Assembly: GCA_001940645.1 (NCBI GenBank)
Contig: MDVS01000001.1
Coordinates: 61,087-125,086 of the forward strand
Direction: 5' to 3'
Length of the DNA stretch: 64,000 bases
Origin: Candidatus Heimdallarchaeota archaeon LC_3
GTDB taxonomy: Archaea > Asgardarchaeota > Heimdallarchaeia > Hodarchaeales > LC-3
Shown here: positions 2,082 to 56,401 of the stretch, in pieces
Numbering within the stretch: position 1 is the stretch's first letter
How the letters are laid out: the number at the start of each line of letters is the position of its first letter
The notes under the pieces: model-generated
Told to the model about the DNA's origin: nothing
The model's database searches: none
Seen by the model: only the letters and a program-made list of their open reading frames with translations
Translations under genes and position numbers: made by a program

Positions 2082-3644
2082 ATGACTGAGTTATTCAAAC
2101 AACAATTACATACAGATAAAATTAAAGATAATCATTCAAAGGAAAATTTAAATTTTCAAAATGATTACATTTCTATTAAGAAAAAATCTAATTATAAGCG
2201 ATTCCAAATCAAGATCTCTCCTGCACCAGCAAAAAAAGGTCTTCCACATCCTTTTTATCCAAAAATCCAAAAAATTGGTCTTTTTAAACTTTTAATTAAA
2301 GAATTATTAGAAATTAACTTCAAATTAGTCAGAAAAAAGTATCGAAATCGTTTATTAGCTCGTCCATGTATCTATGGAGTTTTTAGTGGAAAATTAGGTG
2401 GATTTCATCCCATTAGAAGCAAATGTGTTGGATGTTTAAGATGTGTTCAAGAATACCCAGATTTCTGTACGGTGGAGAGGAATCCGAAATTTCTAAATTT
2501 TGCAGATTCGTATTGGGCACCAGATTCAAATTCTAAATTAGCTTCGCTTTCTACAGCATTTTCTACTGTTTGGTATGAAGCTGAATCAGGAAAAATACTT
2601 ATTAAAGGAATGGGATATAAAGGATCATTTTCAGACATTGGATGGGATACTATATGGACGGATATGTCAGAAATTGTTAGACCAACCCGCGATGGAGTAT
2701 ATGGAAGAGAATTTATATCAACAATTGTCAATATTGGGAGAAAAAATATTCTTGTTAATATTCTAGAAAAAATTGAAATTCCAAGTAATAAACAAATCAG
2801 TCTCCCCATTATATTTGATTATTTACCAGATAATATAAATAACGAAAATATTGCTCAGAGTATTTTCAAAACCACCACCGAAATTCAAACGGCTTGTTTT
2901 TTTACTCCAGAACAAATCAAAAAATATTCAATAAATTATTTGAATAACACTAGTCTGGGGATCTATATCAACAAAAAATTGGATAGTAAATCTATAAAAA
3001 TATTAGAACATGCAAGTATTATTGAATTAGATTATAATATCAAAATGGATATTTCTGAAATTAAAAAAATTAATCACAAAGCTCCTATTATTCTGAAAAT
3101 ACCTGTTAAAAAAGATATAGAAGATTTGATTTGCTCCTTAGCTAAGGATGGTGTCGATGGATTTCATCTATATGCTGATTATCATGGTCAATCATTTGAT
3201 AAAGAAAAACCAAAATTTATTATTGAATATATCAGGCTTATTCATACAAAATTAGTTGAAATCGGTGTTCGAAATCAACTTACTATAATCGTAAGCGGAG
3301 GGATTATTTCAGCAGAACATGTTCCCAAAGCTATTATTTGTGGTGCAGATCTTGTGGCTATTGATACAACAATCTTAGTGGCACTTCAAACAAAATTTTT
3401 TGCGGACTTTTCTAATTCTCAATCGGGTAATCTTATCCAGAATAAATTTGATTCTAAATGGGGTTCACAGCGGTTAACAAATTTATTAGCATCGTGGTAT
3501 AATCAATTAATTGAGGTTCTTTCAGCAATGGGAATTCGTGACATTAGAAGACTACGCGGAGAGGTAGGGAGAGCGATATTCAAAATTGATGTAGAAAAGG
3601 AAGCCTTTGATGGAATCGAAGGTTTTTTGGAGAGTCAACAATGA
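2082..3644 (+). CDS. Glutamate synthase-related protein: ferredoxin-like cysteine cluster plus diverged FMN-barrel domain
   Basis: The 520-residue protein has a basic N-terminal region, then a cysteine cluster C115-x2-C118-x2-C121-x7-C129 suited to an iron-sulfur centre, then a conserved EIVRPTRDGVYGREF stretch and a C-terminal half related to the FMN barrel of glutamate synthase (SGGIISAEHVPKAI, then GIRDIRRLRGE). The last 60 residues are clearly paralogous to the end of the next gene product (SKWGSQRLTNLLASW against PEWGAQRIINLFSSW). It lacks the glycine-rich GLGGHLL loop and the barrel cysteine cluster of that neighbour, so it may be an electron-transfer or structural partner rather than the synthase itself. 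It is first of a three-gene operon; its stop overlaps the next start (ATGA), implying translational coupling. Confidence 0.75.
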   Translation: MTELFKQQLHTDKIKDNHSKENLNFQNDYISIKKKSNYKRFQIKISPAPAKKGLPHPFYPKIQKIGLFKLLIKELLEINFKLVRKKYRNRLLARPCIYGVFSGKLGGFHPIRSKCVGCLRCVQEYPDFCTVERNPKFLNFADSYWAPDSNSKLASLSTAFSTVWYEAESGKILIKGMGYKGSFSDIGWDTIWTDMSEIVRPTRDGVYGREFISTIVNIGRKNILVNILEKIEIPSNKQISLPIIFDYLPDNINNENIAQSIFKTTTEIQTACFFTPEQIKKYSINYLNNTSLGIYINKKLDSKSIKILEHASIIELDYNIKMDISEIKKINHKAPIILKIPVKKDIEDLICSLAKDGVDGFHLYADYHGQSFDKEKPKFIIEYIRLIHTKLVEIGVRNQLTIIVSGGIISAEHVPKAIICGADLVAIDTTILVALQTKFFADFSNSQSGNLIQNKFDSKWGSQRLTNLLASWYNQLIEVLSAMGIRDIRRLRGEVGRAIFKIDVEKEAFDGIEGFLESQQ

Positions 3645-4924
3645 TTGTAGAAGAGTTAATACTTACACAGGAAAAACAAGTATCAAATATACACAAGGGA
3701 TTAGAATTATTACCTTCTAAAATTCATAAATCTGGAGCTCTTGGTAATAAGCGTTGGACAGATGAATTAATATTATCTACTTGGCAACAAGCGTCATCAG
3801 GAAAACCCCCAACTTCAGGATTAGAATATAAAATTGGTAAATCTAACGGAGGTTTTGATCGTTTACATTTTAAATCTAATTCTGTAAGTCAACTTAAACC
3901 TGATGAAGACATAGATTTAGTATTACCATTGAATGGAAGATCAGAGGGACCAAAAATAAATATCTCACTTCCTATTTATGGCGGAGGAATGTCATACGGC
4001 TCTATAAGTTTGAATTTTATGTTAGCTAGAGCAATTGCTTTTCAAAAAATTAATTCATTTTTTAGTACGGGAGAAGGTGGTTATCCCCCCGCTTTGTTTC
4101 CGTACAAAGAAAATATTATTACCCAAATAGCAACGGGTTTATTTGGAGTTAATGAAGAAACAATAAAAATGAGTCGTATTCTAGAATTTAAATATGCTCA
4201 AGGAGCAAAACCTGGTTTAGGAGGGCATTTATTAGCTGATAAGGTAACAACAGAAGTTGCGAAAATGAGAGAATCAGTAGATTTTTCCTCTTTATATTCT
4301 CCTTTTCCATTTCATTCTGTTTATTCTGTTGAAGATCATAAAAAGCATGTTGATTGGGTGAAATCAATAAATCCTGATGCTTTAATTTCAGTAAAAGTAT
4401 CTACACCTCGGGATGTAGATATGGTTGCTATTGGAAGTTATTATGCAGGAGCCAATATTATTAATTTGGATGGCGGATTTGGTGGAACTGGAGCAGCCCC
4501 TGAAATTGCGAAAAAGAATATTGCAATGCCTATTGAATATGCAATTCCTAAAGTTCACAAATTTTTGGAATCAGAAGGAGTTAGAGATGAAATTGTTCTC
4601 ATTGCAAGCGGTGGAATACGTACCGCCTATGATGTTACTAAAGCAATTGCATTAGGAGCAGATGGATGTGTAACTGGAACATCTGAAACCATAGCAGTTG
4701 GATGCACTCATTGTGGTAATTGTGAAAAAGGCCGTGGTTGCCAAGTCGGAATAACTACGACAGATCCATATTTATCGACTTTTATCGATCCAGAATGGGG
4801 CGCTCAAAGAATCATTAATCTATTTTCTTCTTGGAAAATGCAATGGGAAGATTTACTACGAAATTTAGGGTTGAAATCTATCCGTGACTTAAGAGGAAGA
4901 ACAGATTTGCTTTTGTATAAATAA
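3641..4924 (+). CDS. gltB: Glutamate synthase, FMN-binding central/synthase domain subunit
   Basis: This 427-residue protein is the GltS FMN barrel as a separate subunit, as is common in archaea. Seen motifs: YGGGMSYGSIS, the GAKPGLGGHLLADKV loop (about residues 187-201), ISVKVS, INLDGGFGGTGAAP, the phosphate-binding IASGGIRTAYDV and GADGCVTGT, and a cysteine cluster C355-x2-C358-x2-C361-x5-C367 for an iron-sulfur centre. The family makes glutamate from 2-oxoglutarate plus ammonia channelled from a glutaminase subunit, using reduced ferredoxin or NAD(P)H. No GltD-type NAD(P)H subunit lies nearby, so ferredoxin is the likelier donor (inference). The ATG at 3641 overlaps the upstream stop. Confidence 0.88.
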   Translation: MIVEELILTQEKQVSNIHKGLELLPSKIHKSGALGNKRWTDELILSTWQQASSGKPPTSGLEYKIGKSNGGFDRLHFKSNSVSQLKPDEDIDLVLPLNGRSEGPKINISLPIYGGGMSYGSISLNFMLARAIAFQKINSFFSTGEGGYPPALFPYKENIITQIATGLFGVNEETIKMSRILEFKYAQGAKPGLGGHLLADKVTTEVAKMRESVDFSSLYSPFPFHSVYSVEDHKKHVDWVKSINPDALISVKVSTPRDVDMVAIGSYYAGANIINLDGGFGGTGAAPEIAKKNIAMPIEYAIPKVHKFLESEGVRDEIVLIASGGIRTAYDVTKAIALGADGCVTGTSETIAVGCTHCGNCEKGRGCQVGITTTDPYLSTFIDPEWGAQRIINLFSSWKMQWEDLLRNLGLKSIRDLRGRTDLLLYK

Positions 4925-4943
4925 TCGTAAATGAGGAAAAAAA

Positions 4944-7490
4944 ATGTCTATAGAATCGATCATTTCTTCACGAAAAGAATTAATTAAAGATATTAGAACT
5001 AATCTAAATCAAAAACAAGAAGCAGAAGGTGGTTGTGGAGTATTGGGATTAGCTTCTTCCATACCAGTCAAGGGAGAGTTATTAATTTCTGCATTAATGC
5101 AAATGAGGAATCGTGGCAATGGAAAAGGTGGAGGAATTGCAGTTTTAGGATTATCTGCACCTGAACTTGGAGTTTCTCAAGAAATACTTGATAAATCCTA
5201 CATTCTTCAAGTAGCTTTTCTTAATACTAACATTATTGATGATTTAGAAAAAGAATTTATTTACTCACAATTTATCGTTCTTCATAAAGCAACAATCGGA
5301 ACGGTTGACGATTTTTCATCAATCGGATTAGATGTCAAGCCCCCTGAAGTAATAAGATATTTTATTTCCTGTAAAGATAATGTTATTGCTGAATTTATTG
5401 AAAAAAATAATTTTTCTGATAGACCAACAGCAGAAGATGAATTTGTTTATCAGAACACCTACAAATTGCATAAAAAATATTATTCATCATTGGGTGAAAA
5501 ACATGCCTTTGTATTATCCCACGGAAAAAACATGCTTGTTTTCAAAATTGTTGGTTATGCTGAGCAAGTAATTCAATATTATAAGCTTGAATCTTTATCA
5601 GCCTATGTTTGGATAGGTCATCATCGTTACCCAACAAAAGGAATAGTTTGGCATCCAGGTGGAGCACATCCTTTTATCGGTTTAAATGATGCCTTAGTTC
5701 ACAATGGAGATTTCTCAAATTATCATGGAGTAGCTGAATATCTAGCTCAATTCAATATCTATCCATTATTTTTAACAGATACTGAAGTCGCTGCTTATCT
5801 TTTCGATTTGTACAGTAGAGTTTTCAATTATCCAACCGAGAATATTATCGAAGCTCTAGCTCCCACAACTGAACGTGACTTTCACATGTTGGATCAAGAA
5901 AAAAAAGAATTATATAAAAACATCCAGTTATCTCATATTAATGGTTCCCCAGATGGTCCATGGTTTTTCATTATTGGAAGATCACAGCCAAATATTAAAC
6001 ACATCCAGCTATTAGGAATAACAGATACATCTATGTTAAGGCCACAAGTTTTTGCAATGGTAGAAGGAGATAATGGAGAAAATATTGGACTTGTTGCTTC
6101 TGAACGTCAAGCGATTGATGCAGTTTTAAAGAGCATTTCCCAATCTAATCAAAACATTTCTTCAAAAGCAGATATTTATTGGAATGCAAGAGGTGGAAGC
6201 CATACTGATGGTGGAGCATTTATTTTTAATGTGGATTTATCAGGAAGCGATCCTAAATTTACTTGTTTTGACAAATTTAATAATGAGATCAAAATTCCAT
6301 CTAAAAAAGAAACTTGGGACTATTTCAGCAACTTTTTAACAAAAACTTATAGCAATGGGAATGTTATTCATCCATTTACTCAATTTGAAACAATGATACA
6401 AAGATCAAATTCGTTATCTGATTTACTAGATAATTTAAAAAAAGAACATCTATCAAACAATCTAAGCAATATCAGTATTATAGAATTTTTAACATATACA
6501 TTAAACCGTATTCACTTAACAACATATAATATAAACGGCAAAGCAAAAGAAAAGATTGAACTTATCTTATATTCAGTATTTAGATCTTATTCAAAAATCA
6601 ATGAAACCAATGGGAAGAGAGAAGGAGTCTATTTAGATTTCAGGATCTCTAAGGAGATCAGAGGACCCTTTGGGAAAGAAAAATATCTTATTCTTGATAT
6701 AAAAGATTTTCCTTCAGAAGGAAAAGACTCTGCGTCATTAATAATAGTCAATGCATACAAAAAAGGTTGGAAGCAAATTTATTCTTTTGATTGGAAGGGA
6801 CAAAGATTTGGAGGATGTGGACTGGGTCCAAATTCCACTGGTTTTCGATTAGATGTGTATGGAAATCCTGGAGATTATCTAGCTTCAGGAATTGATGGTG
6901 CTGAAATATTTGTACACACCTCAGCACAAGACCAAGTGGGCCAAATATTCAAAAGCGGTAAATTAATTATATATGGAGATGTTGGCCAAACATTCATGTA
7001 TGGTGCAAAGGGAGGTGAAGTATATGTTCTTGGAAATGCAGCAGGAAGGGCACTTATTAATGCTGTAGGAAAACCACGTGTAGTTATAAATGGTACCTGT
7101 TTAGATTATTTAGCAGAGAGTTTTATGGCGGGAGATCCATTGAAAAAAGGTGGTTTTGTGATTTTAGGGGGTATTTCATTTTCAAGTTCAGGAATACCTA
7201 AAGTACTTGATACACCATATTCCGGAGGAAATTTATTTTCTTTGGCATCAGGCGGGGCAATTTATCTGCATGATCCAAATCATCGGGTAGAAATAGATCA
7301 GTTACATGGTGGAATGTTTAGCACATTTACTACTGAAGATGAAAAGGCAATAACTCCCTATTTATGGCAAAATGAAATTTTATTTGGATTAAATCTTGCT
7401 AAGATATCAAATGGTGGCCAAGAATTAGAAAAGGAAAATTTTCCAGAAATTTTTAGGAAAATAAGTCCAGGGATTTCTAAAATCATATAA
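4944..7490 (+). CDS. Glutamate synthase, fused class-II glutaminase and GXGXG domains
   Basis: This 848-residue protein joins two parts of glutamate synthase that are often separate genes in archaea. The N-terminal half is a class II (Ntn) glutamine amidotransferase: candidate nucleophile C31 in EGGCGVLG, RYPTKG, and HNGDFSNYHG. C31 must become N-terminal, so removal of a 30-residue propeptide is expected, as for bacterial GltB. The C-terminal part (about residues 615-780) is the right-handed beta-helix GXGXG domain, with GNPGDYLASG, GDVGQTFMYGAKGG and VLGNAAGRA repeats. It supplies ammonia to the FMN subunit encoded 19 bases upstream. A GAGG box precedes the ATG at 4944. Confidence 0.88.
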   Translation: MSIESIISSRKELIKDIRTNLNQKQEAEGGCGVLGLASSIPVKGELLISALMQMRNRGNGKGGGIAVLGLSAPELGVSQEILDKSYILQVAFLNTNIIDDLEKEFIYSQFIVLHKATIGTVDDFSSIGLDVKPPEVIRYFISCKDNVIAEFIEKNNFSDRPTAEDEFVYQNTYKLHKKYYSSLGEKHAFVLSHGKNMLVFKIVGYAEQVIQYYKLESLSAYVWIGHHRYPTKGIVWHPGGAHPFIGLNDALVHNGDFSNYHGVAEYLAQFNIYPLFLTDTEVAAYLFDLYSRVFNYPTENIIEALAPTTERDFHMLDQEKKELYKNIQLSHINGSPDGPWFFIIGRSQPNIKHIQLLGITDTSMLRPQVFAMVEGDNGENIGLVASERQAIDAVLKSISQSNQNISSKADIYWNARGGSHTDGGAFIFNVDLSGSDPKFTCFDKFNNEIKIPSKKETWDYFSNFLTKTYSNGNVIHPFTQFETMIQRSNSLSDLLDNLKKEHLSNNLSNISIIEFLTYTLNRIHLTTYNINGKAKEKIELILYSVFRSYSKINETNGKREGVYLDFRISKEIRGPFGKEKYLILDIKDFPSEGKDSASLIIVNAYKKGWKQIYSFDWKGQRFGGCGLGPNSTGFRLDVYGNPGDYLASGIDGAEIFVHTSAQDQVGQIFKSGKLIIYGDVGQTFMYGAKGGEVYVLGNAAGRALINAVGKPRVVINGTCLDYLAESFMAGDPLKKGGFVILGGISFSSSGIPKVLDTPYSGGNLFSLASGGAIYLHDPNHRVEIDQLHGGMFSTFTTEDEKAITPYLWQNEILFGLNLAKISNGGQELEKENFPEIFRKISPGISKII

Positions 7491-26584: not shown

Positions 26585-27742
26585 TTAAAGAAGATTAGGA
26601 ATATATCCTAAAACCAGAGCTAATATAAAACCAATGGTACCTGCAAAGATTGGAATAGGTAAAGCGGGTAATATTTCATATTTTTCTAACATTCGAAATG
26701 TGAGATAGGATCCTATTAAGATGCCAAGGAACGGTAATATTAACAACCATATATTATTATTTACCAATCCTTCATAAAAGGATTTAGAAATTAGTACCGA
26801 AAAAAATACAAAATCCCCAAGGCCAATTGAAATTTCTGGTGTGTGATAAACTGGAAGTGAGATGGGAATAGGTTGGTAGTCTAAATATTCCTCATTATTT
26901 CCTAAATTTTTTTGAGGGAAATGTATTTCTTTTGAAGGTTTTTCTTCTTCATAATCTGCGGTCGAATTATTTTCAGCAAAATTTTCTTCATCAGATAACG
27001 ATTCTATCATATCAGGATTTTCAACATATTGTTTGTTATCTGATGAATTTTTTTCGGGAAGAGGTGCAAACATTTTTTTAATAGGACCCCAAAACACTGC
27101 GTAAATATCATAAATCGCTAATGCAAGTAATACAAAAAAAAGTGAGACAGTACCAAAATTTATACCGAAAACTACACCCATTAATGATCCGAATAATATC
27201 ATTAATACATTGTGTATTTTCTGAGATCTAAATCGATTCAAACCTAAGACTAAGAAACTTATTATTCCAAATATTAAGCTTATAATTATCATAAACTCAT
27301 TAAGTATGAACACGGCTACTTGAAAAGAGATAAAATCTACGGTTGAGGGGAAAAAAATGAAAATCCAGAACGGTATCGTCCAAAAAACATAAACCCCAAA
27401 CGTAAATGTTGCAAATCCCATCATGGAAGCAAATAACAATTCTAATATCTTGATTTTACCCGTTCGAATTAAAAATACTAGGAAAAATCCTCCTATTAGT
27501 GCAATAAATACATAAATCAGAGCATTTGACAAACCTGCTGCAATTGTACCACCAACATCATCAGGATTTTCAACAGTAATTGGTGCTATATCTTGTACCT
27601 CTTGATCAGTGTAAATAAGTGCATTATTAACAAATATTGTAAAAAATGCTGTCAAAGAAATGGTGATTAATATTGGTATTATGAATTTCCTTGATTCTCG
27701 TAATTGTTGTAAAAAATCCCTAGTGAAGGACATTGTTATCAA
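26585..27742 (-). CDS. Presenilin/signal-peptide-peptidase-like intramembrane aspartyl protease (A22-type)
   Basis: The 385-residue protein has about nine membrane helices and all three signature motifs: Asp212 in IYDIYAVFWGP (helix 6), Asp310 in IGLGDFVFFS (the GxGD motif) and the PAL motif in ILPALPIPI. An approximately 85-residue hydrophilic, acidic loop between helices 6 and 7 fits presenilin topology. The family cleaves transmembrane helices after membrane insertion. It is divergent from thiL across 65 bases. An archaeal member retaining all motifs is likely active. Confidence 0.9.
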   Translation of the reverse strand: MITMSFTRDFLQQLRESRKFIIPILITISLTAFFTIFVNNALIYTDQEVQDIAPITVENPDDVGGTIAAGLSNALIYVFIALIGGFFLVFLIRTGKIKILELLFASMMGFATFTFGVYVFWTIPFWIFIFFPSTVDFISFQVAVFILNEFMIIISLIFGIISFLVLGLNRFRSQKIHNVLMILFGSLMGVVFGINFGTVSLFFVLLALAIYDIYAVFWGPIKKMFAPLPEKNSSDNKQYVENPDMIESLSDEENFAENNSTADYEEEKPSKEIHFPQKNLGNNEEYLDYQPIPISLPVYHTPEISIGLGDFVFFSVLISKSFYEGLVNNNIWLLILPFLGILIGSYLTFRMLEKYEILPALPIPIFAGTIGFILALVLGYIPNLL

Positions 27743-30743: not shown

Positions 30744-31637
30744 TCATTCCTCTGGATTTTGAGCTAACCACCAAATATATTCAAGCAACCAATGTAATGA
30801 TGCTGGTAGTCCTTCTCCAGTAATTCCGCTTGCTGGAAAAACTGAAATTCTGTATGAACTTGAAGATATTTCATTAATTGATGAAACAATTGAACTTAAC
30901 TCTTTACTTGTAAGAAGATCTTGCTTATTAACAATAATAGAAAAAGGTAATCTCATAAAATTTGGATTTTTGAGTAGTTTTTCTAATTCCTGAATAGATT
31001 CCTGTATCCTTTCTCGATCATCTGAGTCAATCACGTAAATTATACCTGTCAAATCTTCATATTCCAACCATAAAGGACGAAAATCCTCTCTCCCGCTTAA
31101 TTCTAGAAAAACAGGTTCCCATTCAGCACCTAAAACACCGGGCATTGTAAAACGATTGAGACCAAAAGTAGGTGAATATTCCTCAATAACTTCACCAGTA
31201 GTAAGATAGGACAAAATTGCAGTTTTTCCAGCTTTATCTAAGCCAAATACTCCAATTGGTGTTTTATCATTCCATTTGATTGATTTTAATTTAAATTCAC
31301 TAGAAAATCTTAAGTGAGTTAACGTCCCACATTGAATTATCAGATTTTCAACACGATCCTTCAAAAATTCATTTGTGATCATCTTCTTTGCATTAGAATT
31401 GGAAAATCTATAGCGTAAATTTTTTAATTCGTCACAAATTTGTTTAGCAAGAACTGAATAACTTGGTTTAGGGAATTCGTAATCAAGTGCAATGATTACT
31501 TTTATGGCATCAAAGCCTTTGTATAACTCTTTTATCTTTAAATATTGAAATTGAGGATCATCTTCTAATCCCGGGTCGTACCCTAAAATAACATTGGTAT
31601 TTGAATATTCATATATGCCAATATCAGGGATAATCAT
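30744..31637 (-). CDS. Arf-like small GTPase with N-terminal extension and degenerate switch II
   Basis: The 297-residue protein has an unrecognised N-terminal domain of about 115-120 residues, followed by a small GTPase domain with Arf-type motifs: G1 GLDKAGKT (132-139), G2 PTFG (156-159), G4 NKQD (237-240). The RPLW of switch II (187-190) and the DSDDRERI strand match Arf. However, Arf G3 DVGGQ reads ELSGR here: Asp to Glu (179), Gly to Ser (181) and the catalytic Gln to Arg (183). That predicts impaired or altered GTP hydrolysis. There is no N-terminal myristoylation Gly2. Such Arf-like proteins are an Asgard hallmark. It sits directly upstream of fen1 (9 bases), an unexpected pairing. Confidence 0.82.
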   Translation of the reverse strand: MIIPDIGIYEYSNTNVILGYDPGLEDDPQFQYLKIKELYKGFDAIKVIIALDYEFPKPSYSVLAKQICDELKNLRYRFSNSNAKKMITNEFLKDRVENLIIQCGTLTHLRFSSEFKLKSIKWNDKTPIGVFGLDKAGKTAILSYLTTGEVIEEYSPTFGLNRFTMPGVLGAEWEPVFLELSGREDFRPLWLEYEDLTGIIYVIDSDDRERIQESIQELEKLLKNPNFMRLPFSIIVNKQDLLTSKELSSIVSSINEISSSSYRISVFPASGITGEGLPASLHWLLEYIWWLAQNPEE

Positions 31638-48920: not shown

Positions 48921-50465
48921 TTAGGTTGAAGGAGGAGCTATTACATTGATATCTAAAAACATAATAGCATGACTAGCTCCACAGAAGAAAGTACATCGAA
49001 TTTCGAATGAACTATCTTGTTCTGGTGCAGTCCAATATAACTCAAGGATTTCATGTTGAGGTAGTGTTCGAATCAAAGATTTTCCAAAATAATCTAATTC
49101 TGGTTCGCCTTCAGCTCCCAATACAAAACCGTGTTCTGTATCTAAGGCCTTCAAAACAAATCTTACAGTTTGTCCATAAAATACAGTAAAACCTGTTGTT
49201 TTTAATCCACCATAATCTTCATCTAATATATAATCAACCCCTAGCATTTCCCTAAGTGCTGGATCAATTAGTTGGTTTAAGTGATAAGCTTGTTTCGAGT
49301 AAACGCTCACAGGATCAACAAACTCAGTTAATTCAGGATCTAATAATTTATTCTGATATACAGTTGCATTAAATGTCCAAGGTTTAATCTGTGCTTCGAT
49401 AACAATCTGTACGTCGACTTCACTATCTTCTAGATGAGTTTCTGCTATTCTAGGTAATGGAAAAACAAAAATAGATATCACAAAGACTCCAACTATTGAT
49501 AAAGGAATTAATGTTGAAGTTAAATTCCAGTTTCTTCGTTTAGCATTAACAATGAGATAAACAAATCCTATTCCAATAAATGCCAAAAAGAAGAACATAG
49601 CAGTTATTGGAATCACAGCGTTTTCTAATCCTCCATCGGATAAGAGATTGCCGAAAATTGGATCAAGAAATTCGAAAATATCAAACACCTCAGCTTTTGG
49701 TTTTAGTAATTCAGGATAAACATCTTCAGGATTTTCTTGTAAATAGACTGCCTGACTTATCAAATAACGATTATCATCATGATAATTCATCATTATCTCA
49801 ACTCCAGGGGTTAAAGGATCAGGAGCTAATGAAGAGCTAACAATAAAATAAGCGCCATTTTCATCACCTACAGGTAGATCAATATCTATTGGTATTCCAT
49901 TATCTGTTGTAACTTCATCAACTGTTTCTAAAGGATAAACAAATTCTAATATTGCGTTTTCTCCGTCATTTGTTACTTTAGCAAAAAGAGTATCATTTGT
50001 TCCCCCAATAAGGGTGTCTGGAACATGATTTCCGGTTATTCCATAGTCATCTCTTACGACTTCATTGCCATTGGATAGTTTTTCTCCAATAATGATATTT
50101 GTGTCTTCCATTATAGAAGCACCTGCTGTCGTAGGCTTATCTAATCGCCAACCTATAGCAACATAGCCTTGAGATGTTGTAGAAACTAGAATGTGTAAAT
50201 GAGTTCCATTATGCTCCCAAAAAATTTGAAAAATTTGTCCTGCTGGTGTTTCGATTTCAAATTTATTATTTTGATTAACAAAATCTGCTGAATCTCCGTC
50301 TATATTACTTGATTCAAAATTTCCTTCCACAATCTCGATCATAGGATCGAATGCTGAAATTTCTTTCCCCTGAGTAACGGAGGCAGTTCCCACTAATGTA
50401 CTTAATAAAGTAAACATAAACAGGCTCAATGATATAAATGCAAATAATTTTTGCCTTTGTCTCAT
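48921..50465 (-). CDS. DOMON domain fused to a two-helix, CuA-type cupredoxin (COX2-like) domain
   Basis: The 514-residue protein has a signal peptide (about 1-30), a DOMON-like extracellular beta domain (about 60-235: QGYVAIGWRLDKP, DYGITGNHVPDTLIGG), then two membrane helices (about 285-308 and 317-340) and a C-terminal cupredoxin with the CuA pattern: His445 in DTEHGFVLG, then Cys491-x3-Cys495-x3-His499-x2-Met502 (CTFFCGASHAIM). This is the ligand set of cytochrome c oxidase subunit II. The bridging Glu of C-S-E-I-C is Phe here (only its carbonyl is used). No COX1 lies nearby. DOMON usually binds heme or sugar. The fusion suggests an electron-transfer chain component on the outer membrane face. 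Confidence 0.75.
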   Translation of the reverse strand: MRQRQKLFAFISLSLFMFTLLSTLVGTASVTQGKEISAFDPMIEIVEGNFESSNIDGDSADFVNQNNKFEIETPAGQIFQIFWEHNGTHLHILVSTTSQGYVAIGWRLDKPTTAGASIMEDTNIIIGEKLSNGNEVVRDDYGITGNHVPDTLIGGTNDTLFAKVTNDGENAILEFVYPLETVDEVTTDNGIPIDIDLPVGDENGAYFIVSSSLAPDPLTPGVEIMMNYHDDNRYLISQAVYLQENPEDVYPELLKPKAEVFDIFEFLDPIFGNLLSDGGLENAVIPITAMFFFLAFIGIGFVYLIVNAKRRNWNLTSTLIPLSIVGVFVISIFVFPLPRIAETHLEDSEVDVQIVIEAQIKPWTFNATVYQNKLLDPELTEFVDPVSVYSKQAYHLNQLIDPALREMLGVDYILDEDYGGLKTTGFTVFYGQTVRFVLKALDTEHGFVLGAEGEPELDYFGKSLIRTLPQHEILELYWTAPEQDSSFEIRCTFFCGASHAIMFLDINVIAPPST

Positions 50466-50618: not shown

Positions 50619-51791
50619 TTATTTCAAAATCATTTCTGATATCGGATGGGATTCAATTAATTGTGTCCCTAAAACACTCAATATATCGCACAATTTCTTA
50701 TTTTCACCAGATTGTGAACGATTAAGCAAATAAACTCCAGCAAAAAAGTCTACAGGAATCATATTTGATGAATATAGCTCTTTTAACTTGGGATAAAGCA
50801 AAGTGTATGAATTTAATATTTTTGGTGCTGACTTAACCAGTAACTGGTCTAATGCTTGAGATAATATTTGTCTTGTAGAAATATTTTGTGGATCAGCCTT
50901 TCGAAGAGCATTTTCAACATATTTTTCAGCAATAGTAGACAGTAGAAAACCAAGATCATCTGTACGATCAGATCCAGCATTTAATATTGGATCTATTAAT
51001 GTTAGCGAGTCTAATCTTCCTTTACCTGGGACTAAAGCATTATATTGAACAGAATTAAGAGAATATTCTCCGAAACCAAATTCCAACCCTCCTTTGCTAG
51101 ATTCTAGTACATGCTTCCAATTATTTATCTCTTCTTTTTCAATATCAAGGGAATGGAGAAAAGGAAACCATTCAGAGTAATCACGAGTTAGTGGTTGAGG
51201 TTCTTGAAATCCGTGCATTCGAGATAATGCATATCCTGCTAATGAATAACGTGATTCGGGTGAAACTCCACTTTTGGGTCTAGAAATAAATCTCGGTAGA
51301 ATTTCAAATTGAATTATATATGTTTCATCATCTTTTGTTTGAAGTCGTGGAGCAAATATTGAGTCTGGAAAATTATATTTTTTAATTTCATTTTGATTTA
51401 TACTTCTTTTAATGCTTTCCCATTGGCTTTGTCGTGATTCTAGTAGATTTAAAAAATTCTCTGAAGTATTAATGACATGTTTATAATAACTCTTATCATT
51501 ATAAATTTGTTTAGCAATAAATCCTATGGAATACCCTTGTTGTGATCCTTCAGACATTAACTGAACTTCAAGGATTCCTGTGATTCCAAATTGGTTAGTC
51601 ACAATCGTTCTAGACAATTCTTGAAGATTAGAAAAATCCAATCCAATCTGGAGACTAGTTAGTTCAAGTATACTTTGTGCTGCATTTTCTAAAGTAATAT
51701 CTAACCAGTTTTGAGTCATTGTTTGTAACCAACTGCAATAAATAGCGTTTAATAATCCAACTACGAAAAATACAAAAAGGTTATCATACAT
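50619..51791 (-). CDS. Aminoglycoside-phosphotransferase-like kinase homologue, divergent
   Basis: The 390-residue protein shows weak APH-like features: IGFIAKQIYND (Lys near 95), YALSRMHGFQEPQ, LNSVQYNALV in place of H-G-D-x4-N, and LTLIDPILNAGSDRTDDLGF resembling the D-F/W-E metal motif and DLA loop. The canonical HGD catalytic motif is altered (GFGEYS), so it could be a pseudokinase. A hydrophobic N-terminal segment (about 5-23) may be a membrane anchor, or the true start is ATG 51719. Function unknown. Confidence 0.4.
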   Translation of the reverse strand: MYDNLFVFFVVGLLNAIYCSWLQTMTQNWLDITLENAAQSILELTSLQIGLDFSNLQELSRTIVTNQFGITGILEVQLMSEGSQQGYSIGFIAKQIYNDKSYYKHVINTSENFLNLLESRQSQWESIKRSINQNEIKKYNFPDSIFAPRLQTKDDETYIIQFEILPRFISRPKSGVSPESRYSLAGYALSRMHGFQEPQPLTRDYSEWFPFLHSLDIEKEEINNWKHVLESSKGGLEFGFGEYSLNSVQYNALVPGKGRLDSLTLIDPILNAGSDRTDDLGFLLSTIAEKYVENALRKADPQNISTRQILSQALDQLLVKSAPKILNSYTLLYPKLKELYSSNMIPVDFFAGVYLLNRSQSGENKKLCDILSVLGTQLIESHPISEMILK

Positions 51792-53124: not shown

Positions 53125-54393
53125 ATGTCAAATCAAACTGCAAAACTAATATTAAATGGAAAAGAATATGATTTTCCAGTTATTGTAGGTTCTGAAGGCG
53201 AAATCGGTATTGATACTGCCAAGCTTCGAGGAACAACTGGAGCTATTACATTAGATCCAGCATATGGTAATACAGGATCCTGTACTAGCAAAATAACATT
53301 CGTAGATGGTGAAAAAGGAATTTTAAAGTACAGAGGTTACCCCATTGAGCAATTAGCTGAGAAAAGTAACTTTCTTGAAACTGCATACCTTTCAATTTAT
53401 GGTGACTTACCTAATAAAGAGCAATACAACAAGTGGAATGACGCAATAATCAATCATAGCTTAATTCATGAAGATATGAAGAAGTTCCTTGAAGGTTATC
53501 AAATTACTGCTCATCCGATGTCGATTTTATCTGCATTGTTAGTATCTTTATCACAATATTATGATACGAAAGATGTAGATCTAAATATCATCCGATTAAT
53601 GGCAAAAATGAAAACACTTGTAGCGTGGTCATTTAAGGCTCATTTAGGTCAACGGTATATATATCCTCGTAACGATCTTTCCTATGAAGCTGATTTTCTG
53701 CATATGATGTTTGCTATACCCTCAGAAGAATATAAAATATCACCAGTAGTTGAAAAAGCACTACGATTACTTTTAATACTTCATGTCGATCATGAACAGA
53801 ACTGTAGTACATCAACGGTAAGAATGGTTGGAAGCAGTCAAGCTAATCTTTTTGCATGCATGGCAGCAGGTGTTTGTGCCTTATGGGGTCCTTTACACGG
53901 AGGGGCCAATCAGCGTGTGTTGGAGATGCTTAATAATATTGTGCGAGACGGAGGTGACTATGAAAAATACATGAAAATGGCAAAGGATAAAGAAAGCGGC
54001 TTTAAATTAATGGGATTCGGGCACAGAGTTTATAAGAACAGAGATCCAAGAGCTGAAATACTTAAAAATGCCGCTGATGATGTATTATCAGAAATAGGAG
54101 TAAAAGATCCCTTATTAGAAGTAGCAAAAGGATTAGAAAAAATAGCATTAGAAGATTCTTATTTTGTTGATCGTAAGCTTTATCCAAATGTTGATTTCTA
54201 TTCTGGTATTATCTATAAAGCATTAGGAATTCCTGTTGATTTCTTCACACCAATGTTTGCTTTGGGAAGACTTCCTGGATGGATAGCCCAATGGAAAGAA
54301 GAAGTTGAGAGACCAGGTGCTAGGATTCACCGTCCTAGACAAATCTTTACTGGTGAGACTGATCGGAAATACGTTGAATTAAATCAGCGCTAG
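53125..54393 (+). CDS. gltA: Citrate synthase
   Basis: The 422-residue protein has the citrate synthase signatures: LRGTTGAITLDPAYGNTGSC, KGILKYRGYPIEQL, the catalytic-His HVDHEQNCSTSTVRM and LHGGANQ, and the GFGHRVYKNRDPRA motif, with Asp in PNVDFYSGI. It condenses oxaloacetate and acetyl-CoA, entering the TCA cycle and glutamate synthesis. A GATAGGGA box precedes the ATG at 53125. It is one of few central metabolism genes in the window. Confidence 0.96.
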   Translation: MSNQTAKLILNGKEYDFPVIVGSEGEIGIDTAKLRGTTGAITLDPAYGNTGSCTSKITFVDGEKGILKYRGYPIEQLAEKSNFLETAYLSIYGDLPNKEQYNKWNDAIINHSLIHEDMKKFLEGYQITAHPMSILSALLVSLSQYYDTKDVDLNIIRLMAKMKTLVAWSFKAHLGQRYIYPRNDLSYEADFLHMMFAIPSEEYKISPVVEKALRLLLILHVDHEQNCSTSTVRMVGSSQANLFACMAAGVCALWGPLHGGANQRVLEMLNNIVRDGGDYEKYMKMAKDKESGFKLMGFGHRVYKNRDPRAEILKNAADDVLSEIGVKDPLLEVAKGLEKIALEDSYFVDRKLYPNVDFYSGIIYKALGIPVDFFTPMFALGRLPGWIAQWKEEVERPGARIHRPRQIFTGETDRKYVELNQR

Positions 54394-54424: not shown

Positions 54425-56401
54425 TTATTTCTTTTTTCTTTTATTAATCAATATTATAGTTGTTAGTGTGCCCACAGTAAGTAAAGCAAAACTACCTGTA
54501 AATCCATTTGTAGTAGTTGTGGTTATTGAGGATTTAATCTCGGTTGTAATTGTTTCTGAACTTGTTGTAGAAGAGGGAACCTGAGATATATCTGTTGGTA
54601 CTAATCCAGTAAAGTCAAATAGATAAAAACGATAATGAATAGAGTTAGATTTATTAGGTGTAGCAGGATGATCGACTAACCAATCTTCAGCTTGATAAGC
54701 ATTAATTGAATAACCAGATTGGGTGGTAAATATTCGATTTCTAGGATATTTATCCCATGCATCTGAGGGAACTAAATCAGGATCATAAAGACTAGTAACA
54801 TCAGAAGTCAATAACGATTGCCAATACGATTTCATGGATGACTGATAACTATTATTAGTTGAATGAATTTGAGTCGTCAATTGATAATTAGGCTTTGGTA
54901 AAAACGTGTTTGATGCAATTAAAACTTCTGAAGATTGAGTAAAAGTTTGATTCAACATGTTTACAATTATTTCTCTATCAAGAAATCCTTCTCCAACAAT
55001 AAAATCAATGTGCATGTTTAGAGGAGGAGATTTCTCACCAAAACCTGACTGTTTTCTTAATTGGCCAAGTTCATTTTCTAGATCTATTAATTCACCCTCT
55101 AAGGATTTAAACAATAATTGGATTCCTGTATAGTTTCCTTGATATAAAAGATTATTGATTTCGAACAGTTGATTCTCTAAATAAAACATCGTGTTATTTT
55201 GAGTTGAATTAAGTGTTAATGATTTATAATATTCGATTTCATCTTCATATTTGCCAATTAATTGTAAACTAAGACCATTAAGAACTAAATCAGTATTTAA
55301 ACTATCAAATTTAGCTGAACGTGAGTAATATGTCATGGTTGATTCTGTTATAGAATCCAAATACCAAGCACCTATATCATGTGGGTGAGGTATCCCTATA
55401 GAATGTCCTAACTCATGAAGAACTGTTGAATCTAAATTATCACGCGGTTTTTCAGGATCGCCTCCATAAAAATAACTTAACTCATTTCTTCCTTGAATTG
55501 TCCATGATCCAATATCTGAATATGCTGAATTTATTTGTCCTAATCCACCAATTTTACCAAATCCTGGATAATACAAAGTAACACCAGATTGGAGCAATAA
55601 CATTGACGGAAATATTAAATCATACTCAGATGAGTTAAATGTCGTTAATATATTATGAATTATAGTATCTGTTTCAGATAAAAACTGAGTTGTGGTTTGT
55701 AAAAGAAATACATCTTCAGGTTCACTCCAGACAGAATTATTATAAATCAGATCATTAAAAGAAGATAAATTGACAGGATCAAACCATAACAAGTCTGTGG
55801 TAAAGTTCAACAAAGGAAATTGAGTATTTAATGTATTTTGAACTAAATGAGGATTAACTATCCATTCTGACAAGCTTGAATTTTCATAACCTTTACTAGT
55901 CATATTATCATATACTATTAGGGGAGCCCAAATATTAAAAGACTTCAGATTCTTAGCATAATCTAGTGATAAATCACCCGTGGTCAGTCGTTCAGTTAAT
56001 GTCTCAAAAAAATACTGAATACAGTTACTTTGGTCTTGAATGCTTGTTAACTTATGAAAATTATTTTCGCAATTGCTTGCCAGAGCATTTCCCCATACAT
56101 TTTGAACCCAATCAGAAAACCATTCAAATGCTCCGAGATCAAAAAAAGCAGAGCGGGAATCGGAAAGGAAACCACGAAGAGGTAGGGAATAAGGTACATC
56201 TGTTAAAGAAAAAAAAGGAACCCATTCGGAGTTTCCAGCTGGATTCTGATATTGATCTAATGTATACCAGTATTTATCTTCATCAAACGACTGGAACTTA
56301 ATATTATCGCTTGATGTGCTAATAACATGACTAATAGGAGTAAAAGAGAAAATTCCAATTAATAAGAAAACTGAAAATCCTAAAAAATAAGTTTTTTTCA
56401 T
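54425..56401 (-). CDS. Secreted, membrane-anchored metzincin-type zinc metalloprotease
   Basis: The 658-residue protein has a signal peptide (about 6-26) and the extended zinc motif HExxHxxGxxH at residues 329-339 (HELGHSIGIPH), followed by a Met-turn-like STMTYYS. The C-terminal 50 residues are Ser/Thr-rich (TTTTT runs), then one hydrophobic helix and KRKKK, so the protein is anchored to the membrane with its catalytic domain outside. Pappalysin/matrixin-like. Inserts between motifs are long. It likely degrades extracellular or surface proteins. Confidence 0.8.
   Translation of the reverse strand: MKKTYFLGFSVFLLIGIFSFTPISHVISTSSDNIKFQSFDEDKYWYTLDQYQNPAGNSEWVPFFSLTDVPYSLPLRGFLSDSRSAFFDLGAFEWFSDWVQNVWGNALASNCENNFHKLTSIQDQSNCIQYFFETLTERLTTGDLSLDYAKNLKSFNIWAPLIVYDNMTSKGYENSSLSEWIVNPHLVQNTLNTQFPLLNFTTDLLWFDPVNLSSFNDLIYNNSVWSEPEDVFLLQTTTQFLSETDTIIHNILTTFNSSEYDLIFPSMLLLQSGVTLYYPGFGKIGGLGQINSAYSDIGSWTIQGRNELSYFYGGDPEKPRDNLDSTVLHELGHSIGIPHPHDIGAWYLDSITESTMTYYSRSAKFDSLNTDLVLNGLSLQLIGKYEDEIEYYKSLTLNSTQNNTMFYLENQLFEINNLLYQGNYTGIQLLFKSLEGELIDLENELGQLRKQSGFGEKSPPLNMHIDFIVGEGFLDREIIVNMLNQTFTQSSEVLIASNTFLPKPNYQLTTQIHSTNNSYQSSMKSYWQSLLTSDVTSLYDPDLVPSDAWDKYPRNRIFTTQSGYSINAYQAEDWLVDHPATPNKSNSIHYRFYLFDFTGLVPTDISQVPSSTTSSETITTEIKSSITTTTTNGFTGSFALLTVGTLTTIILINKRKKK

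Follow-up and report, generated by a model that had tools for sequence, protein, structure and literature searches.

Can one protein of an Asgard archaeon combine a DOMON-type cytochrome with the CuA module of cytochrome oxidase subunit II (COX2), and if so, where would its electrons go? The question is raised by a gene of Candidatus Heimdallarchaeota archaeon LC_3 that lies on the minus strand of a 64,000-nucleotide stretch of contig MDVS01000001.1, the whole of which we call the window (Table 1). An earlier note, made from the sequence alone, had proposed that the gene encodes a DOMON domain fused to a CuA-type COX2 module, possibly a novel electron-transfer protein, and the fusion of a DOMON-like domain to a COX2-type CuA domain in an electron-transfer protein is also the reading best supported by our analysis. 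The protein consists, in this order, of a hydrophobic N-terminal segment, a DOMON-like domain, a variable linker, a two-helix membrane hairpin and a CuA-type cupredoxin domain with a conserved set of ligands, and it is rare. Its occupancy by heme and copper, the direction of electron flow and the identity of its partner are what we infer. The respiratory chain in which it may act as an electron carrier is one of which few carriers are well known.

A COX2-type CuA domain and hairpin in a rare protein

Searches of about 5.8 billion proteins returned only four relatives of the query protein. These are P0002, a near-identical marine-sediment fragment (LCGC14) with 2 differences in 402 residues; P0003, from Candidatus Hodarchaeales, whose name in one source begins 'heme/copper-type'; P0004, from a metagenome-assembled genome labelled Thorarchaeota; and P0005, from Heimdallarchaeota LC_3 (HeimC3_46830). 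The search method, by which 7,993, 7,996 and 321 candidates were scored, requires shared words of five residues, so distant relatives may exist. Peptide-pattern scans gave no relative in 84,980 species genomes (13 and 69 pattern matches) or in viral contigs (44 pattern matches), and tblastn gave none in plasmids, with the proviso that exact peptide patterns and tblastn scans can miss distant kin. The protein is rare, and the relatives known for it belong to the Asgard archaea, among archaea the group known to stand nearest to eukaryotes.

The CuA ligands assigned by the earlier note, H445, C491, C495, H499 and M502, are correctly numbered, correspond to those of COX2 and are invariant in all five members of the family (the query and its four relatives). 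Each member carries the pattern H...Cx3Cx3HxxM, with a loop of the form C[TS]FFCGA.H..M; C491 and C495 are the only two cysteines of the query, and Cx3Cx3HxxM occurs just once across the six frames of the window. The predicted models are of low confidence (mean predicted local distance difference test score, pLDDT, of 50 and 65; TM-scores of their matches below 0.6), and the model of the CuA domain alone is cupredoxin-like, as the note would have it: Foldseek placed COX2 or CuA structures at all of ranks 1-27, with the COX2 chains 6ci0_B and 2gsm_B as the best matches. Alignment by hhalign gave 94.6% to seven COX2 and 84.7% to nitrous oxide reductase (NosZ), and when three COX2 were compared with the window by tblastn, two matched the site (E 0.003 and 0.061) and the third missed it. 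Near the position of the insertion within the CuA domain, the COX2 of Tsukamurella has a long insertion and that of Amphritea a shorter one.

The two membrane helices ahead of the CuA domain, also foreseen from the sequence, were located at residues 283-339, with hydropathy peaks at 284-302 and 319-337 and the K/R-rich loop VNAKRRNWNLTST between them. Such a hairpin precedes the CuA domain in three of the four full-length members, the query included, and is missing in P0005. Relative to the query, hairpin identity is 72% in P0003 and 61% in P0004 (78% in both for the first helix, 68% in P0003 for the second), which compares with 69% and 59% for the CuA core, 55% and 45% for the DOMON-like domain and 60% and 48% for the whole protein; the start of the CuA domain (350-371) is 100% identical in P0003 and 82% in both P0004 and P0005. 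That these two relatives keep the hairpin about as well as their CuA core would be expected if the hairpin packs on a membrane partner.

The DOMON-like domain and its candidate heme ligands

The N-terminal domain appears DOMON-like in its low-confidence model, and neither of the structural outcomes that the earlier note named as contradicting it, for this domain or for the cupredoxin, came about. Residues 41-244 of the model match 2ivf_C and 7b04_C, both of which we take to carry heme b, and the CDH cytochrome 1d7c_A. The best matches are chains of ethylbenzene dehydrogenase (chain C, presumably its heme b subunit) and of Kuenenia nitrite oxidoreductase, which we assume to be gamma subunits of molybdenum enzymes. 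From the model the domain is probably DOMON-like and probably binds heme. The candidate axial ligands M119 and H229 are invariant in the family and both fall within stretches of the model with pLDDT <50, and CxxCH is found in none of the five members. A published study gives a Met and a His as the heme ligands of CDH and reports that the animal CYBDOM DOMONs it covered keep both, unlike DBH or sugar-binding DOMONs (PMC10691727). The structure 1pl3 differs from CDH solely by a His at M65 across 186 aligned residues. A search of the PDB with P0003 gave 13 matches, none of them a DOMON, with weak COX2 matches (best E 1.2) among unrelated proteins, and a DOMON search of plasmid records was uninformative, as it found none in 11 and the control likewise none in 14.

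Proposed relay and alternatives

We tentatively favour a membrane-held relay outside the cytoplasm, in which electrons would pass from a DOMON heme b to CuA and from there to a terminal reductase; the likeliest one is a heme-copper oxidase whose gene lies elsewhere. The N-terminal hydrophobic segment, which P0003, P0004 and P0005 also have, and the K/R-rich loop suggest that the protein is exported and anchored with both soluble domains outside, and the COX2-type hairpin would be the membrane anchor. A b-type heme would be held by M119 and H229, to which the fold and the conserved Met and His point, and the ligand set argues strongly for a binuclear CuA in the C-terminal cupredoxin, bound by H445, C491, C495, H499, M502 and the backbone of F493. 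Electrons would enter at the heme and move within the molecule to CuA, as the fusion itself and the analogy with caa3 oxidase suggest, so that the heme b domain would do what cytochrome c, soluble or fused, does in other chains. In COX2 the motif QW.W is the site of electron entry, and its Trp receives electrons from cytochrome c. The family does not keep the QW.W of the compared COX2 and has AQ[IL].PWT, with one Trp, in its place (the alignment is ambiguous by 1-2 residues); should the receiving Trp be lost, a donor within the molecule, for instance a DOMON heme, would be a natural substitute. As the acceptor of electrons from CuA, we favour subunit I of a heme-copper oxidase, given the COX2 type of the hairpin and the fact that, where present, it matches the CuA core in conservation.

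A wider proposal, speculative and rather unlikely, is that in Hodarchaeales and their kin this single heme b-CuA protein replaces complex III together with cytochrome c, as an Asgard-specific respiratory connector in which a DOMON cytochrome is combined with a CuA module like that of COX2. It would take electrons either from quinol or from a donor outside and deliver them to reductases of oxygen or nitrate.

Several results weigh against a relay to an oxidase. The Glu of the CxExC motif, kept in all seven compared COX2, is replaced by Phe in all five members; this Glu contributes its backbone to the CuA site and its side chain to the Mg site at the interface with COX1. The CuA site can survive the change from Glu to Phe, the contact with COX1 would differ, and some B-type oxidases are also without this Glu. 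The Glu and Trp that are typical of the start of the second COX2 helix were not seen in the query, and the second helix of P0004 is merely 45% identical to that of the query. Comparison with domain profiles cuts both ways: it bore out the earlier note in part, with weak matches that speak for a DOMON-like and a COX2-like half of the protein, and all of these matches lie below the cut-offs. For PF03351 (DOMON) the gathering score is 32.7 bits, the best member reached 26.1 bits (P0003, E 1.1e-5) and the query 16 bits; with the NCBIfam models of CtaC/CoxB the query scored 20 bits where TIGR02866 has its cut-off at 147.7, and 28 where that of NF050117 is 250; and PF00116 was unmatched in all five members at E up to 1. 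On the heme side, many alignment columns are invariant, including H147 (5/5) and H91 (4/4), so that the invariance of M119 and H229 is weak evidence; hhalign failed to align the DOMON part with three CDH-type cytochromes (1.3%), and a sequence search of the PDB with the DOMON alignment gave no match at E up to 10.

A phylogeny with COX2 and NosZ, as the note had proposed, was made as a midpoint-rooted tree of 15 CuA domains. It groups the family as a single clade (100/98), set off by a branch of 2.96 changes per column, for which long-branch attraction was flagged. The family falls, with its long branch, on the NosZ side of the root, and NosZ itself was grouped in only 48% of bootstraps; the nearer kin of the family may be COX2 or NosZ.

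The alternative that survives best, possible though we hold it the more doubtful, is a freestanding heme b/CuA carrier that belongs to no oxidase and would link an outward-facing donor with acceptors outside the cell or with a reductase of the molybdenum type (nitrate reductase, for example), with the hairpin as a mere anchor. What makes a molybdenum reductase or free carrier the main rival is the LC_3 member P0005, the lost Glu of the oxidase interface and the best matches of the DOMON model, which are gamma subunits of molybdenum enzymes. P0005, which also speaks against the relay, keeps both soluble domains but, in place of the central hairpin, shows a hydrophobic stretch at its C-terminus; its lack of the hairpin may be a real rearrangement or a fault of assembly. 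Against a free carrier, the hairpin of P0003 and P0004 equals the CuA core in conservation, which is beyond the need of an anchor, and a reductase was not identified among the scanned neighbours. The scan took in 26 of the 58 distinct open reading frames of the window (length floors of 80 or 100 amino acids), which were compared with Pfam and/or NCBIfam, and the rest were inspected by eye. Nor was an oxidase gene found close by: in line with the earlier note, which saw no COX1 gene near, COX1 was not found in the window, where the best match of six COX1 N-terminal pieces (E 0.071) lies inside an Arf-like gene.

Published accounts of oxidases in Heimdallarchaeota disagree. The ancestor of Hodarchaeales has been inferred to possess complexes I, II and IV and NarGHIJ, the last of which suits a free carrier, with quinones and cupredoxins as carriers (Eme et al., 2023; PMC10307638); 'cytochrome', 'CIII' and 'complex III' occur in no place of its main text, which is no proof of genomic absence. 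Since it unites a probable heme b domain with a CuA domain, the protein is a tangible candidate for the link that is missing there, in archaea that are placed beside the eukaryotes. A review has Heimdallarchaea encoding cytochrome c oxidase (PMC12993045), and heme A synthase is reported for Heimdallarchaeota (PMC12808453) and for Asgard archaea (PMC8239418). A survey, in contrast, counts Heimdallarchaeota with the groups that lack heme-copper oxidases (PMC7618691), which favours the free carrier and weighs against an oxidase as partner.

It is improbable that the protein is a divergent COX2 with a heme-less DOMON/CBM9-like module for sugar binding or a structural role, for instance in surface docking, given that M119 and H229 are invariant in 5/5 members and that the top match of the DOMON model, presumably a heme subunit, lies 2.2 Z units over CBM9. 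Least of all do we expect a redox sensor or copper-handling protein whose CuA-like site binds copper outside any electron chain: the only energy-related matches in the scanned part of the window, two ATPase subunits and citrate synthase, would allow it, but a two-Cys CuA set and not the one-Cys set of blue copper is kept in 5/5 members, and neither Pfam nor NCBIfam gave a match to a kinase or regulatory domain in the protein.

Locus and gene surroundings

The open reading frame of the relay candidate opens with an ATG at 50465 and ends at 48921, and stops block the plus strand over the same interval. Its upstream neighbour on the same strand (50619-51791, 390 amino acids) is 153 bp away and has no family match in Pfam or NCBIfam, and on the other side lies a convergent DUF362 gene; the DOMON-CuA gene probably stands on its own and would not be co-transcribed. 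The citrate synthase gene is at 53125-54393.

Table 1. Positions in the window of the DOMON-CuA gene and of the features of its product.
Feature	Position	Strand	Remark
Coding sequence, 514 amino acids: DOMON-like domain, COX2-like transmembrane hairpin, CuA domain	48921..50465	minus	relatives match over full length
N-terminal hydrophobic segment, residues 7-25, signal peptide or anchor	50391..50447	minus	hydropathy peak 2.24
DOMON-like beta domain, residues 41-244 (about)	49734..50345	minus	
M119, candidate heme axial ligand	50109..50111	minus	invariant 5/5; just before model strand 122-129
H229, candidate heme axial ligand, in a YH pair	49779..49781	minus	invariant 5/5; just before strand 233-235
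Two-helix membrane hairpin, residues 283-339, K/R-rich connecting loop	49449..49619	minus	absent in P0005
CuA-type cupredoxin domain, beta-rich, residues 345-512	48930..49433	minus	Foldseek, NCBIfam below cut-off, hhalign
Insertion inside CuA domain, residues 372-424	49194..49352	minus	exceeds the length in compared COX2
H445, CuA ligand	49131..49133	minus	invariant 5/5
CuA ligand loop C491-T-F-F-C495-G-A-S-H499-A-I-M502	48960..48995	minus	F493 at the Glu position of compared COX2

The window also encodes two V/A-ATPase subunits, a presenilin-like protein (26585-27742, minus strand; PF01080, E 2.3e-25) and an Arf-family small GTPase with about 120 extra N-terminal residues (30744-31637, minus strand; PF00025, E 1.3e-29), whose gene adjoins that of a FEN1-like nuclease, the latter recognised by eye. 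The ATPase subunits, the presenilin-like protein and the GTPase would fit an Asgard origin of the DNA. The product of 54425-56401 (minus strand) is, by eye, probably secreted, with the sequence HELGHSIGIPH, which we take to be a metzincin-like zinc motif, and a C-terminal hydrophobic stretch; neither Pfam (E up to 0.01) nor NCBIfam (E up to 0.001) gave a match to it. A split glutamate synthase occupies 2082-7490 on the plus strand, where 3641-4924 matches the large-subunit model at 864-1172 and 4944-7490 joins glutaminase-like and GltB C-terminal-like parts within one protein.

Comparison with known systems

With COX2 (CtaC/CoxB; TIGR02866, PF00116) the protein shares a two-helix hairpin followed by a CuA cupredoxin with the ligands H, C, C, H and M. 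It differs in its additional N-terminal DOMON-like domain, in CxFFC instead of CxExC, in the insertion within the CuA domain, in scores that lie under the curated cut-offs, in forming a separate clade and in that COX1 was not found in the window. Its curated scores below cut-off and its lack of the CxExC Glu are our reasons for not counting it as COX2. The CuA cupredoxin is also common to NosZ, which carries an N-terminal beta-propeller with a CuZ site, and the Cys loop has an aromatic residue at its centre in three of the four compared NosZ (CQWFC twice and CTYFC; the fourth has CTDFC). Unlike NosZ, the family has CG after the second Cys, as do all seven compared COX2, and not CH or CS; a hairpin is present, and a DOMON-like domain takes the place of the propeller.

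The heme DOMONs (the CDH cytochrome domain, CYBDOM and the gamma subunit of ethylbenzene dehydrogenase) resemble the N-terminal domain in the beta-sandwich match of its low-confidence model, and likewise in a Met and a His (candidate ligands in our protein) about 100-116 residues apart and ahead of strands. In our protein this domain is joined to CuA, and profile comparison gave no sequence relation to CDH (1.3%). A DOMON-CuA fusion was not recognised among the papers listed by literature searches, judged from titles and the openings of abstracts. We know of no case in which CuA is joined to a DOMON cytochrome; its fusion to cytochrome c comes nearest. Such a fusion is caa3 oxidase, in which COX2 carries a C-terminal cytochrome c. 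Its subunit II (2yev, chain 2yev_B of which was among the Foldseek matches) is alike in having a donor heme domain joined to CuA, whereas the domain fused here is DOMON-like and N-terminal, and CxxCH is absent from the family. By analogy, the protein described here would work like a heme-fused COX2.
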